41,976 bases of DNA from Rhodospirillales bacterium (GTDB lineage: Bacteria; Pseudomonadota; Alphaproteobacteria; Acetobacterales; Acetobacteraceae). The notes under the pieces are model-generated. The model was not told the origin of the DNA, searched no databases, and was given only the letters and a program-made list of their open reading frames with translations. Location: NCBI GenBank assembly GCA_028869595.1, contig JAGWRU010000034.1, forward strand, positions 1-41,976, given 5' to 3'. A program made the position numbers and the translations under genes. How positions within the stretch are numbered: the first letter of the stretch is position 1; every line of letters starts with the position of its first letter. Positions 10,254-40,665 of this stretch are shown piece after piece.

Positions 10254-11777
10254 ATGATGATCGCGCATTGCCAGAGCTTCGCCTTTTCCGGCATCGATGC
10301 CGTTCCCGTGGATGTGCAGGTGCAGCTTGCCTCCGGGTTGCCGGCATTTCTTCTGGTCGGCCTTGCCGAACGCGCGGTCAATGAAGCGCGGGAACGAGTG
10401 CGGGCCGCGCTTGCTTCGATGGGCCTGTCCTTGCCGCCCCGCCGGGTGCTGATCAACCTCGCACCCGCCGATATCGTCAAGGAAGGCAGTCATTTCGACG
10501 TACCCATCGCGCTCGCGCTGCTGGCGGCGATGGATGTCATTCCCGCAGGCGCCCTGGATGGCGTCGCCGCGCTCGGGGAATTATCGCTCGATGGCCGCCT
10601 GCTGGCGGTGAATGGGGTATTGCCCGCCGCCATTGCCGCATCGGGCGCCGGGCAGAATTTGATCTGCCCGGCAAGCCAGTCGCGCGAAGCGGCCTGGGCG
10701 AGCGGATTGCAGATTCACCCCGCCGATACGCTGCTGGAGTTGATCAATTTCTTTCGCGGTGCCGCGCCGCTGCCGCTGCCCGATCCGGCAGAGCTGGACG
10801 CAAGCGGGCCGGGAAACGAGCGCATGCTCGATCTGGCCGATGTGCGCGGCATGGAACTGGCCCGTCGCGGGTTGGAGATTGCAGCCGCGGGCGAGCATAA
10901 TCTGCTGATGATCGGGCCGCCTGGTTCCGGAAAATCGATGCTCGCCGCGCGCATGCCCGCGCTTCTACCCGATCTTTCGCCGATCGAAGCGCTGGAAGTC
11001 AGCATGGTCCACAGCGTTGCCGGCATGCTGAAAAACGGCAGGCTGCTGCGCCGCCCGCCATATCGCGAACCGCATCACGGTGCCAGCCAGGCAGCCCTTG
11101 TCGGCGGCGGACAGCGGGCCCGGCCGGGCGAGATGTCGCTGGCGCATTGCGGGGTACTGTTCCTGGACGAGCTGCCGGAATTTCCCCGCCACGCCCTGGA
11201 GGCGTTGCGCCAGCCCATGGAAACCGGGCGGGCGACGATTGCGCGGGCGGCCGCGCATGTCACATATCCGGCACGATTTCAGCTGGTCGCAGCGATGAAC
11301 CCATGCCGCTGCGGCTATCTCGACGACGCCGGCAAGGCATGCACGCGCGCACCGCGTTGCGGCGAGACCTATCAATCGCGGATCAGCGGCCCGATTCTGG
11401 ATCGCATCGATCTGGTCGTGCATGTCGCACCGGTCAGTCCGGCGGAACTCGCGCGCGCCCCGCGCGGAGAAAGCAGCAGCACCGTTGCCAGGCGCGTAGC
11501 CGCCGCGCGGCAGCGCAGGCGGGATCGTACCGAAAGCGAAAATAAGCCGAGATCCGGCGATGGCTACGACGCCGCCATCTGTCTGTCACCGGAAGCGGGC
11601 GATCTGGCCGAAAAGGCGATGGAGCGGCTTGGCTTGTCGCCGCGCAGTTACACGCGGTTGATCCGCGTGGCCCGGACCATTGCAGACCTCGCCGCCGCCA
11701 CAGAAGTTGCGCGGGAGCACGTGGCAGAGGCGCTGATGTTCCGCCACCGCCCCTTGCGCGGCGCGGGCGGTTACTGA
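10254..11777 (+). CDS. comM: YifB/ComM-family Mg-chelatase-like AAA+ ATPase
   Basis: N-terminal Lon-S5-like 'FSGIDAVPVDVQVQLASGLPAFLLVGL', Walker A 'GPPGSGKSMLA', 'PYREPHHGAS', 'LVAAMNPCRCGY'. Confidence 0.92.
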   Translation: MMIAHCQSFAFSGIDAVPVDVQVQLASGLPAFLLVGLAERAVNEARERVRAALASMGLSLPPRRVLINLAPADIVKEGSHFDVPIALALLAAMDVIPAGALDGVAALGELSLDGRLLAVNGVLPAAIAASGAGQNLICPASQSREAAWASGLQIHPADTLLELINFFRGAAPLPLPDPAELDASGPGNERMLDLADVRGMELARRGLEIAAAGEHNLLMIGPPGSGKSMLAARMPALLPDLSPIEALEVSMVHSVAGMLKNGRLLRRPPYREPHHGASQAALVGGGQRARPGEMSLAHCGVLFLDELPEFPRHALEALRQPMETGRATIARAAAHVTYPARFQLVAAMNPCRCGYLDDAGKACTRAPRCGETYQSRISGPILDRIDLVVHVAPVSPAELARAPRGESSSTVARRVAAARQRRRDRTESENKPRSGDGYDAAICLSPEAGDLAEKAMERLGLSPRSYTRLIRVARTIADLAAATEVAREHVAEALMFRHRPLRGAGGY

Positions 11778-13188: not shown

Positions 13189-13265
13189 GCGACGCTTATC
13201 GCGCGGATCGGTTAGCGAAGCCTTTCGCCGCGCATCGCACGCGATGCTGCACTGCAAAATTCCGC

Positions 13266-13294
13266 TTGCAATGCGGTTGGCATTCTCCTAGATT
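13266..13294 (+). promoter_or_regulatory. Predicted sigma70-type promoter for the sRNA
   Basis: TTGCAA (13266-13271), 17-nt spacer, TAGATT (13289-13294). Confidence 0.55.
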
Positions 13295-13300
13295 GTGCAT

Positions 13301-13387
13301 CGCAGCAATGCGGCTTTGCCGCGCTGTCTGCTTTCTTGGACGTTTCCTCCCTAAACTTGGCGGCCCCACAAGGGCCGCCATTTTTTT
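13301..13387 (+). ncRNA. Candidate trans-acting sRNA, alpha-r8/MmgR (suhB RNA)-like
   Basis: Own promoter; 5' hairpin CAGC-aat-GCGGC-ttt-GCCGC-GCTG (13303-13326); single-stranded stretch with TTTCCTCCCT; perfect 9-bp terminator stem plus T7; no plus-strand ORF that it would serve. Confidence 0.72.
13358..13387 (+). terminator. Rho-independent terminator
   Basis: TGGCGGCCC CACAA GGGCCGCCA TTTTTTT. Confidence 0.9.
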
Positions 13388-13438
13388 ATCTGAACAGGGA
13401 TGCGCCGACGCTGCATATGGCCGCTCGGCATCGATATT

Positions 13439-14362
13439 TCATTCGAACGCGGCAGAAAACAGCGTGATCAATTTTTCCATTTTACGACGCATCATGTTAT
13501 ATTCGTCCCCTGCCATAATGTCTGGATCTCTCATGTATAACACCCTTGGGACTTCCAACTGAATTACGTCGACTTTTATGCGCGGATTTCCATAGTATTT
13601 CGTAATATATCCGCCTGAATATGGATTATTGATCGCGCATTTTTCTCCCACCTTTTCAATGGCGCCCTCCATTTTCTTTGTGACCGAGGCGCTGCACGCC
13701 GCGCCATGAGCGTCACCCAGAACAAAGGCCGGGCGGGCTTCCTCGGCGCCCCAAACCGGCGGCATCGAATGACAATCGATCACGATGCATCGGCCGAAGC
13801 GGGCCCGGGTTTCGTCGATCAGACCACGAAGCTGATCGTGGAATGGCTGCCAGCACGTCTCGATCCGCTGTTCCGCCTCGTGAAAACGCAGCTTCTCCCG
13901 ATAGATCGGCTGGCCATTCGCCACGACCCGCGCAATGGTCCCCAAACCGGCATCGATTCGCGGTCCGGATACACGCACACCCTGCGGCAGGGTATCTGCG
14001 AACATCGCCGGGTCCAGCTCCCACTTCTCGCGATTCGCATCGCAATATGCGCGCGGGAATGTCGCGACGAGCAAGGGCATGCCGTAAAGCGGCGCCGCAC
14101 CGAACAAATCATCAACAAACGCATCCTCGCTGAAACGCAGCTGATGCGCAGTCAGGCGCGACTGGGAACGAAATGCCTGCGGATAGTCACGCCCGGAATG
14201 ACAGGAAACCACGATCACCGGCGCACGCACGCGGTCGGGACGCAACAGCATGGTCGGCCTTCCCCCCGGCGGGCGGAAGCTGGTATTGAGCGGGCTCATC
14301 GCAGGGCGTGCATCCATCGGCGTGGGCGGCTCGTCATCGCGGTACTCCTCATTCAGCGACAC
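13439..14362 (-). CDS. N-formylglutamate amidohydrolase family protein
   Basis: 'VIVVSCHSGRDYP', 'CIVIDCHSMPP', 'FVLGDAHGAACS', 'NNPYSGGYITKYYG', 'VIQLEVPRVLYM'. Confidence 0.88.
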   Translation of the reverse strand: MSLNEEYRDDEPPTPMDARPAMSPLNTSFRPPGGRPTMLLRPDRVRAPVIVVSCHSGRDYPQAFRSQSRLTAHQLRFSEDAFVDDLFGAAPLYGMPLLVATFPRAYCDANREKWELDPAMFADTLPQGVRVSGPRIDAGLGTIARVVANGQPIYREKLRFHEAEQRIETCWQPFHDQLRGLIDETRARFGRCIVIDCHSMPPVWGAEEARPAFVLGDAHGAACSASVTKKMEGAIEKVGEKCAINNPYSGGYITKYYGNPRIKVDVIQLEVPRVLYMRDPDIMAGDEYNMMRRKMEKLITLFSAAFE

Positions 14363-14453: not shown

Positions 14454-14528
<75 letters not shown>

Positions 14529-37794: not shown

Positions 37795-40665
37795 TTACGG
37801 ATTTACCGTCTGAATATCCCGCGTCATCTGTCCGGCGAGTGCGGCCTCGTGCGCCGCGCGGTGCAAATCGGCGAGATCGGTGATCGGCGCGGCGGTCAGC
37901 AAGGTGAACAGATCACCAAGCGGCCCGCCCGCCATCCTGGCGGCATTCTGTGCCCGTAACGCCGCCAGGCCCGACTGATCGCCGGCCTGGGCGGTGGCCG
38001 TCGCCAGGCGAAGCAAGGTCCGTCTTTGCGCATCGTCAATCGGACCGGAGGCAGGGATCGTCTTCGCGACATAGGATGCCAAGGCATGCTCGGCCCCAGG
38101 CCAGTCCTTGGCCTGCTCGAGGATCGCGGCGCGCGCGGCATCGGCCTGCGGCGTATTCAGCGTCGCGAGAGACGCCGCTGCCGCCGTGGCATGTCCGAGC
38201 GCGGCATCGACTTTGGCCATCAGCATGGCCCGGTGCTGCGTCAATGCCGGGCGCAGTTGCGGCGAATCCGAGTCTGCCAGCACCTGACGCGCGGCCTCGG
38301 CATCGCCCTGGCGCAGCAGCACGCGGGCCAGCCTTGCCCCGAATGTCGCCTTGGCGCCTGGGCTGGGCGCGGCCTGCATCAAGCGCTGAAGCAATGGCAC
38401 GGCGCGATCGGGAAGATCGAGAGAAAGCAACCGGTCGGCGAGATGCCCATCCAGCACCTCTCCCGCCGGTCCGCTCGGCAGCAGATCGGCATTGTCATCG
38501 AGCAGCGCCACCAGAGTCGCCGGTGCCATCTTCGCTGGCGCATCCGCCTGCAGCATCGCCGCGAATATTTTACGCAACCTGGCCTGCAATTCCGGTCGGG
38601 CGGTGGGAAAAAGCTGCTCGCTTCGGCGCAGCATCGCCAAAGATCGGCGCCATGCGCCGGCACGCGCATCGAGATCGGCCAATTCCTCGCGCAATGCCCG
38701 TTCCCGCCGCCCGCCCCGCCAGGCGTAGAGCAGCCGGTCCAGCGCCTCGGCTGCCCCGCGCGCGCCCAGACGTCCGGAAGCCAGACGCAGATTGACCGCA
38801 CGCACCGCCGCGCGGGCGTGGGTTTCGCGATTCCGGCTCAAGGTCAGGCGGTCGAACATTGCCAGGGCCCCGTCCACGTCCCCATGCTTCTGCTTCAGCA
38901 GCGCGCGGGCGAAATCCAAGCGATGATCGCCTGGATGCGCCGCAAGGATCGCCGAGGCCGCCTTGTCTGCCCCACCTTCAATCATCGTCTCGGCCGCGAT
39001 CGGCAGGAAGCGGTCGCGCAGCGGCGCGGGCCACGTCTCGATCAGCGGGGCGGTCACGCCCAGAATCGCCGCCGCGTCCGGCGCGCCCGGATGCCCCTCC
39101 GCCTTCCGCAGCGCGCGCCATAGCGCGATATCGTCAAAGCCGGACAGGCGCGGATCGGCCAGCGGATCGGGCTCTCCCTCGGGGCGGCGCGGATCTCCCG
39201 CGATGATCCGTGCGATTTCGGCAAGCGCCAGATGCCCTGGGCGAACCGCCTCGGCCGGGTCTTCGCTGGCCGCGAGACGCAGCACCCCATCCGCTTCCGC
39301 CCCCATTCCCAGGGCAAGCATCGCCTCGGCCACGGCGCGGCGGGGCTTTGCGCGCGCCAGCGACGGCGCCTCGGCGGCGGCCTGCATACGGTCCTGCAAC
39401 CGCCGGAGCAGAGCGCGGATCGGCCGATCGGGGAAATCGAAGCGCGCGGCCAGAGAAGCAGCATCGGCGTCGCTCAGCCCACCCGGTATGCCGGCACTAT
39501 GCAGGAGACCTGTGCCGCCATTGTCCAGCCGATAGCCGCCTGGTGTGACGCTGAAATGCAGCCCGTCGGATAAGGGTCGCACCGCCACGCCTTGCCAGGT
39601 GGCGAGAAGTCGGAATTGCGGCGCATGGATCGCAGCGGGCACCCCTGCACCGGCATCCCGCTCGGTCCCGACCAGAAGCGTATCGCCGGATAAGGGATCC
39701 GACAGACGAACCACCGCAGCCCGCCCGGGTGCGATGATCTGAAGCGCGGCATGGGCGGGTCGCAGCGGCAGTGGTTGAAATGCCATCCGCTCCCGCCGCA
39801 CGGCCACACGCCATCCTTGTGGATCACGTATCAGCGATATCGCCATGGCCGGATCGAGGGGAATGCGCAGCAAAGTGCCCCCTGCAAGCGGAACGACTTG
39901 GGTATTGCCGAGCAGCGGATCTCCCCGCACCGCCCCGAGGTCGATGGCTTCGCGCCGGTCGAATACGACCATTCCGAAACCACCACGGCGAAATGCTGCC
40001 GCCCCCACCTCGGAGCCGAATGGCAGCAGCATCACCGCCCCATCCCCATGGCTGTCGAGTGGTCGCGCGGCGAGCCCGAGCGATGCGGCGGCCGGCGCCG
40101 CGATGGGGCTCGGCACCGACACGCCGGTGGCGGGCATCGGCGCCGCCTCGACGGGCACCACCGGCGCCGGCGCCGGTGATGGCGGTGCGACATCGGCATG
40201 CCTGGCCGACGCGGGTGCCGCCGCAGGGGGCGCGATCGGCGGATGATCAGGCAATCGCCGGGCAGAAGCCTGGACGGGATGGGGGCCGGCTTCCGGCATT
40301 GTGCGCGGCGCGGGCTTTGCCAGAACGTCGATGACCAGCCGATCGCCCAGGCGCATGGATCGCAGATGGGCGCCCGCCTGAAGCCGGAATATCGCGCCGT
40401 CGGCGACACGCTGCATGCGCATCAATCCGGGCGGCCGATGGCGAGGCAGATCCAGTGGGCGGTGTCCGGCCAGCACCAGCCGGTATTCGTCCCGCCCGAT
40501 CGCCTGCAGATGGGCGGCGATCGGTCCACGAAAATCAAAGACCATGCGCACGAAGCCCGGGTGCCGTCCCGTCCTGACCGATACCGGGCGGACCGGTTCC
40601 GTGCCATGCGCCGCAGCACATAGCGCCGGAACGATCAGGAGCGCGGCCAGGAAGGAGCGCATCAA
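37795..40665 (-). CDS. Large secreted protein with N-terminal AMIN-like region, Pro/Ala-rich linker and C-terminal TPR-like helical repeats; co-operonic with cheZ/cheY
   Basis: Signal peptide 'MMRSFLAALLIVPALCAAAHG'; 'GFVRMVFDFRGPIAAHLQAIGRDEYRLVLAG' AMIN-like; helical repeats in the C-terminal half; start overlaps the cheZ stop. Confidence 0.7.
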   Translation of the reverse strand: MMRSFLAALLIVPALCAAAHGTEPVRPVSVRTGRHPGFVRMVFDFRGPIAAHLQAIGRDEYRLVLAGHRPLDLPRHRPPGLMRMQRVADGAIFRLQAGAHLRSMRLGDRLVIDVLAKPAPRTMPEAGPHPVQASARRLPDHPPIAPPAAAPASARHADVAPPSPAPAPVVPVEAAPMPATGVSVPSPIAAPAAASLGLAARPLDSHGDGAVMLLPFGSEVGAAAFRRGGFGMVVFDRREAIDLGAVRGDPLLGNTQVVPLAGGTLLRIPLDPAMAISLIRDPQGWRVAVRRERMAFQPLPLRPAHAALQIIAPGRAAVVRLSDPLSGDTLLVGTERDAGAGVPAAIHAPQFRLLATWQGVAVRPLSDGLHFSVTPGGYRLDNGGTGLLHSAGIPGGLSDADAASLAARFDFPDRPIRALLRRLQDRMQAAAEAPSLARAKPRRAVAEAMLALGMGAEADGVLRLAASEDPAEAVRPGHLALAEIARIIAGDPRRPEGEPDPLADPRLSGFDDIALWRALRKAEGHPGAPDAAAILGVTAPLIETWPAPLRDRFLPIAAETMIEGGADKAASAILAAHPGDHRLDFARALLKQKHGDVDGALAMFDRLTLSRNRETHARAAVRAVNLRLASGRLGARGAAEALDRLLYAWRGGRRERALREELADLDARAGAWRRSLAMLRRSEQLFPTARPELQARLRKIFAAMLQADAPAKMAPATLVALLDDNADLLPSGPAGEVLDGHLADRLLSLDLPDRAVPLLQRLMQAAPSPGAKATFGARLARVLLRQGDAEAARQVLADSDSPQLRPALTQHRAMLMAKVDAALGHATAAAASLATLNTPQADAARAAILEQAKDWPGAEHALASYVAKTIPASGPIDDAQRRTLLRLATATAQAGDQSGLAALRAQNAARMAGGPLGDLFTLLTAAPITDLADLHRAAHEAALAGQMTRDIQTVNP

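Follow-up and report, generated by a model that had tools for sequence, protein, structure and literature searches.

The question raised by this locus is what transcript, if any, is ended by a terminator on the plus strand between two genes that are both carried on the minus strand. In the window, the whole 41,976-nt stretch of DNA analysed here, the divergent neighbour (12379 to about 13190, minus strand) is termed lytic-transglycosylase-like from inspection by eye and had no match in a Pfam search, and the convergent neighbour encodes an N-formylglutamate amidohydrolase (FGase; 13439–14362, minus strand; PF05013, E 1e-65). On the plus strand, the closest gene on the upstream side is comM, whose end at 11777 leaves a gap of about 1.5 kb to the start predicted below. 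The initial annotation had proposed an unannotated sRNA of the αr8/MmgR (Rfam suhB) family at this position; its account of the flanking genes was correct, and the perfect terminator stem-loop it described (13358–13380), followed by a T7 tract (13381–13387), was confirmed base by base. The complete element, TGGCGGCCC-CACAA-GGGCCGCCA-T7 (13358–13387, plus strand), has nine pairs, six of which show double-sided compensatory changes in relatives. A strong terminator between convergent units could also close an unseen long plus-strand transcript, or be the remnant of a convergent terminator, without any RNA function. This is very improbable, and the conservation of core and 5′ hairpin across genera, the presence of a separate promoter and a covariance-model match all argue against it.

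A cmscan search of the whole window returned two Rfam matches above cut-off, a tRNA and RF00519 (suhB/mmgR). The latter was located at 13323–13394 on the plus strand and scored 50.6 bits (E 1.3e-7) against a gathering cut-off of 41 bits, in agreement with the proposed family membership. The tRNA gene (14454–14525, plus strand, 71.7 bits) lies just past the FGase gene and is ordinary. Matches to rpsL_pseudo, RybB and STnc250 at the sRNA locus fell below cut-off and were rejected as reflecting the terminator. With the start set 6–7 nt past the −10 box and the end set at the T7 tract, the predicted sRNA covers 13301–13387 on the plus strand (about 87 nt). The segment 13300–13387 folded at −38.9 kcal/mol (z −4.06), and 0 of 200 dinucleotide shuffles folded as well. 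The 3.44-Mb draft host genome (86.7 % complete) contains a single over-threshold RF00519 copy, and over-threshold matches were present in 29 of 40 related genomes.

The predicted RNA opens with the hairpin GCAGCAAUGCGGC-UUU-GCCGCGCUGUCUGC (13302–13331, plus strand), as seen in the minimum free energy (MFE) fold; homologous segments fold as well. The hairpin originally described, CAGC-AAT-GCGGC-TTT-GCCGC-GCTG, was found by base-by-base check at 13303–13326, but it is distinct from GCCC-UUCUU-GGGC, the weak stem that the Rfam model places immediately ahead of the core. The fold of the window sRNA lacks the Rfam stem, as do 51 of 59 distinct GGAC-type segments within the Acetobacteraceae, whereas 8 of 12 segments taken outside the family form it. 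The Acetobacteraceae, in which the stem is mostly missing, thus have a variant 5′ structure, with the longer 5′ hairpin in its place. RNAalifold did not return the 5′ hairpin on the MAFFT alignment, in which this region misaligns, and conservation was therefore assessed from single-sequence folds compared with shuffles. The 60 distinct 40-nt homologous segments had a mean z of −3.0, with 95 % below −1 and at least nine pairs in each.

Downstream of the hairpin lies the anti-Shine–Dalgarno (anti-SD) core UUUCCUCCCU (DNA TTTCCTCCCT; 13343–13352, plus strand), an exact copy of the αR8 core (PMC12559287), as the initial annotation had stated. The decamer occurs once in the 42 kb window when both strands are searched, and it sits in a largely unpaired stretch where a single 3-bp stem is its only contact in the MFE fold. 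In 18 aligned copies the core UUCUUGGACGUUUCCUCCCUAAACU was invariant, as was the surrounding block from UUCUUGG to UUUCCUCCCUAAACU. Both hairpins, whose conservation in relatives had been singled out beforehand, vary in sequence yet retain pairing. A 98-aa open reading frame with a TTG start (13266–13562) also traverses the locus, and a short peptide could in principle be its product. However, this frame reads across the terminator and on into the FGase gene, and stem and loop lengths differ among relatives by non-multiples of three; a peptide is very improbable.

The order in which FGase converges on the sRNA, with the lytic-transglycosylase-like gene beyond it, recurs across the Acetobacteraceae. 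In relatives, αr8 is convergent to FGase, whose 3′ end and the core are about 65–230 nt apart, and the opposite side is occupied by the transglycosylase-like gene. An αr8 copy beside one or both of these genes was present in 18 of the first 24 family genomes, host included. In another 30 loci, retrieved with the box-plus-core pattern described below, FGase was found in 15, the transglycosylase-like gene in 19 and both in 10. Similar FGase loci were also found in Acetobacteraceae bacterium KSS8 and KSS12. Relatives show the same neighbourhood as the window, and a putative FGase gene is the usual neighbour of αR8 in the literature (PMC12559287), as the initial annotation had indicated. Based on the over-threshold RF00519 match, the exact 10-mer, the fold z-score, the invariant core combined with varying paired stems, and the FGase neighbour, the locus is on grounds of sequence and structure clearly a genuine, previously unannotated αr8 (MmgR/Sis) sRNA gene and not a new kind of system. 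Members of this known family act by blocking translation of genes for carbon use. What appears to be new is the clade-specific 5′ part and a conserved pair of PhaR-type operators.

The predicted promoter is sigma-70-like, TTGCAA-N17-TAGATT (13266–13294, plus strand), with the hexamers at 13266–13271 and 13289–13294 as first reported. It was not listed by a promoter consensus scanner and its match to consensus is only modest; the hexamer positions are repeated in the FGase-linked copies of relatives. This promoter is flanked by two exact matches to TGCRNYGCASMA, the consensus site of the PHB repressor PhaR that footprinting and a motif search established in Bradyrhizobium (PMC6201568). The upstream putative operator is TGCAGTGCAGCA (13245–13256, minus strand), and the start-site putative operator is TGCATCGCAGCA (13296–13307, plus strand, about −5 to +7), a near-palindrome with a further minus-strand match at 13293–13304. 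The only other plus-strand match in the 42 kb, at 40607, was dismissed as chance, being inside the coding region of a minus-strand ORF (37795–40665). In Sinorhizobium meliloti, PhaR binds the mmgR promoter in EMSA, at a site containing TGTGCACCGCAGCA (PMC12542648). No published report of a PhaR operator pair at αr8 in the Acetobacteraceae was found in the openly readable literature searched.

The distribution of these boxes across the family was uneven between two types of αr8 copy. An exact box at most 130 nt upstream of the core was present in 26 of 35 type-A copies, against 0.04 expected from mononucleotide shuffles, and a PhaR-type box was present in 3 of 18 type-B copies. The type-B paralogues (L051, L052, L055–L057, L060, L062, L064, L066, L067, L071, L072, L075, L078, L081, L083 and L085) share the layout of core and terminator but differ in having another 5′ hairpin, a CCUGCCGUGUGACUGGCG lead-in and mostly no PhaR box. 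This subfamily is marked by CCTGCCGTGTGACTGGCGTTTCCTCCCT and a strong AGGAAGAGG/CCTCTTCCT hairpin, and no type-B copy was found in the host draft genome. A strict box-plus-core pattern, with the start-site box 25–45 nt from the core, occurred in 90 of the 200 family genomes searched, spread over 51 of 102 genera; the reversed pattern gave 0 matches in the same 200 genomes. The PhaR domain PF07879 was encoded in 83 of the 90 pattern-bearing genomes vs 76 of the 110 without the pattern (Fisher p 4e-5), an association that is overstated because the species are related, and for the same reason the genome counts are not independent. The strict pattern was lacking from 76 of the 159 phaR-bearing genomes. 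One relative carries tandem box-bearing αr8 copies about 185 bp apart (G128:C89:2320–2376 and 2505–2561).

It could be argued that the sRNA is not regulated through these PhaR-like boxes at all, and that the start-site box is kept because its GCAGCA doubles as the 5′ arm of the hairpin that opens the RNA. Consistent with this, the 3′ half of the box overlaps that arm, and the L021 copy retains a hairpin with changed arms and without the start-site box. However, the 5′ half of the box (TGCRNY), largely upstream of the RNA, is also conserved; the second box, upstream of the −35 element and outside the RNA, is retained in many copies; and the homologous site is bound by the S. meliloti protein (PMC12542648). 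Absence of PhaR control is accordingly regarded as unlikely. That FGase-linked αr8 in the Acetobacteraceae belongs to the PhaR regulon through a two-operator promoter, with the start-site operator built into the first hairpin, is moderately probable.

Genes for PhaR, Hfq, NtrC and two phasins are all present in the host genome. One host phasin gene also has two PhaR-type dyads upstream (TTTGTGCAGTGCACAAAA and TGCTGCGGTGCAGCAAAA; L094:1184–1262), like S. meliloti phaP1 and phaP2. In S. meliloti, MmgR is Hfq-dependent and lowers PHB and phasins; NtrC raises MmgR and AniA/PhaR lowers it (PMC8401924). In Caulobacter crescentus, SisA uses its αR8 core to repress mRNAs, pairing with them close to the start codon, as tested by compensating changes and with Caulobacter Hfq, and SisA is sponged by CrfA (PMC12559287). 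The window locus shares the UUUCCUCCCU core, the terminator and the PhaR/AniA promoter box with MmgR (TGTGCACCGCAGCA there, TGTGCATCGCAGCA here), but differs in having two PhaR-type boxes in the promoter, in replacing the Rfam-model stem GCCC-UUCUU-GGGC with a longer, stable 5′ hairpin, and in length (77 nt for MmgR, about 87 nt predicted here). It has the core motif and the terminator in common with SisA–SisD, and sisA also adjoins an FGase gene (PMC12559287), whereas a single over-threshold copy was found in the host (draft genome, 87 % complete).

The same parts are present as in MmgR and SisA, and the locus is therefore best read as an anti-SD riboregulator of carbon metabolism under PhaR repression. 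More specifically, we assign a probability of roughly 0.8 to a PhaR-repressed, Hfq-dependent, trans-acting chromosomal sRNA of the αr8 (MmgR/SisA) type that blocks translation of carbon-use mRNAs. Transcription would run from about 13301 to the terminator at 13387. The resulting RNA, about 87 nt long, would consist of the 5′ hairpin, an invariant unpaired central part containing UUUCCUCCCU and a terminator with a U-tail suited to Hfq. PhaR (AniA) would occupy the operators upstream of the −35 element and over the start point and thereby repress the gene, which would be released when PHB granules titrate PhaR away. The core, together with Hfq, would then pair with purine-rich ribosome-binding sites and block translation of mRNAs for carbon use and storage.

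Candidate targets were sought in the host genome. Pairing of the core with the start regions of the two phasin mRNAs gave −12.1 and −13.3 kcal/mol, values equalled by 38 and 26 % of random 52-mers respectively. This is background, so a direct MmgR–phasin link is unsupported in the host. The full complement of the core, AGGGAGGAAA, occurred twice in the host genome, at the sRNA itself and in one leader. This sole perfect 10-mer complement in a leader (AGGGAGGAAAGCATG; L108, G000:C185:4007–4021) precedes a gene of the enolase/mandelate-racemase superfamily, and it was rejected as a target since the Shine–Dalgarno sequence (SD) with the 10-mer complement is not kept in orthologues. With no AGGGAGGAAA beyond this leader in the host draft genome, there is no obvious CrfA-like sponge with a full 10-mer. 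A looser SD search, AGGGAGGA-N2-10-ATG, found 10 places vs 0 for the reversed pattern, half of which precede identifiable genes (a CoA transferase, SCO1/SenC, a racemase-family protein, a MetE-like protein and an MFS transporter). These genes are weak predictions of sRNA targets, drawn from a motif search, and an anti-SD core is inherently unspecific.

A second sRNA candidate, resembling AbcR and with hairpins and a terminator, was observed elsewhere in the host genome (L002:712–832; G000:C22) and also at L053, L058, L086 and L143–L162. Its 25-nt string GTCTCCCAGACGTGAAGCCTCCCTG (L002, 763–787) was found exactly in 83 of 200 family genomes, and its Rfam matches were sub-threshold only (suhB and SorX). 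The candidate lies downstream of a LysR-type regulator (PF03466), with a thioredoxin-reductase-like gene also present in many loci. By its LysR neighbour the L002 copy is like AbcR, which lies beside lsrB/vtlR (PMC8844928), and the candidate may merit either a new Rfam family or placement within AbcR.

For the window, these results add the annotation of a regulatory RNA gene to a genome that has been little studied, and they supply a rule that can be tested throughout the family. The PhaR–αr8 link, established biochemically in S. meliloti, is visible in sequence in about half of the family genera sampled, suggesting an ancient carbon-storage circuit and not one peculiar to rhizobia. If FGase-linked αr8 is indeed under PhaR control, the abundance of a global anti-SD repressor would follow the state of PHB storage well beyond the Rhizobiales, and the paralogous type-B αr8 copies would escape PhaR control. 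The comparison of copies carrying PhaR boxes with mostly boxless paralogues offers a ready test of why many species retain several αr8 genes.
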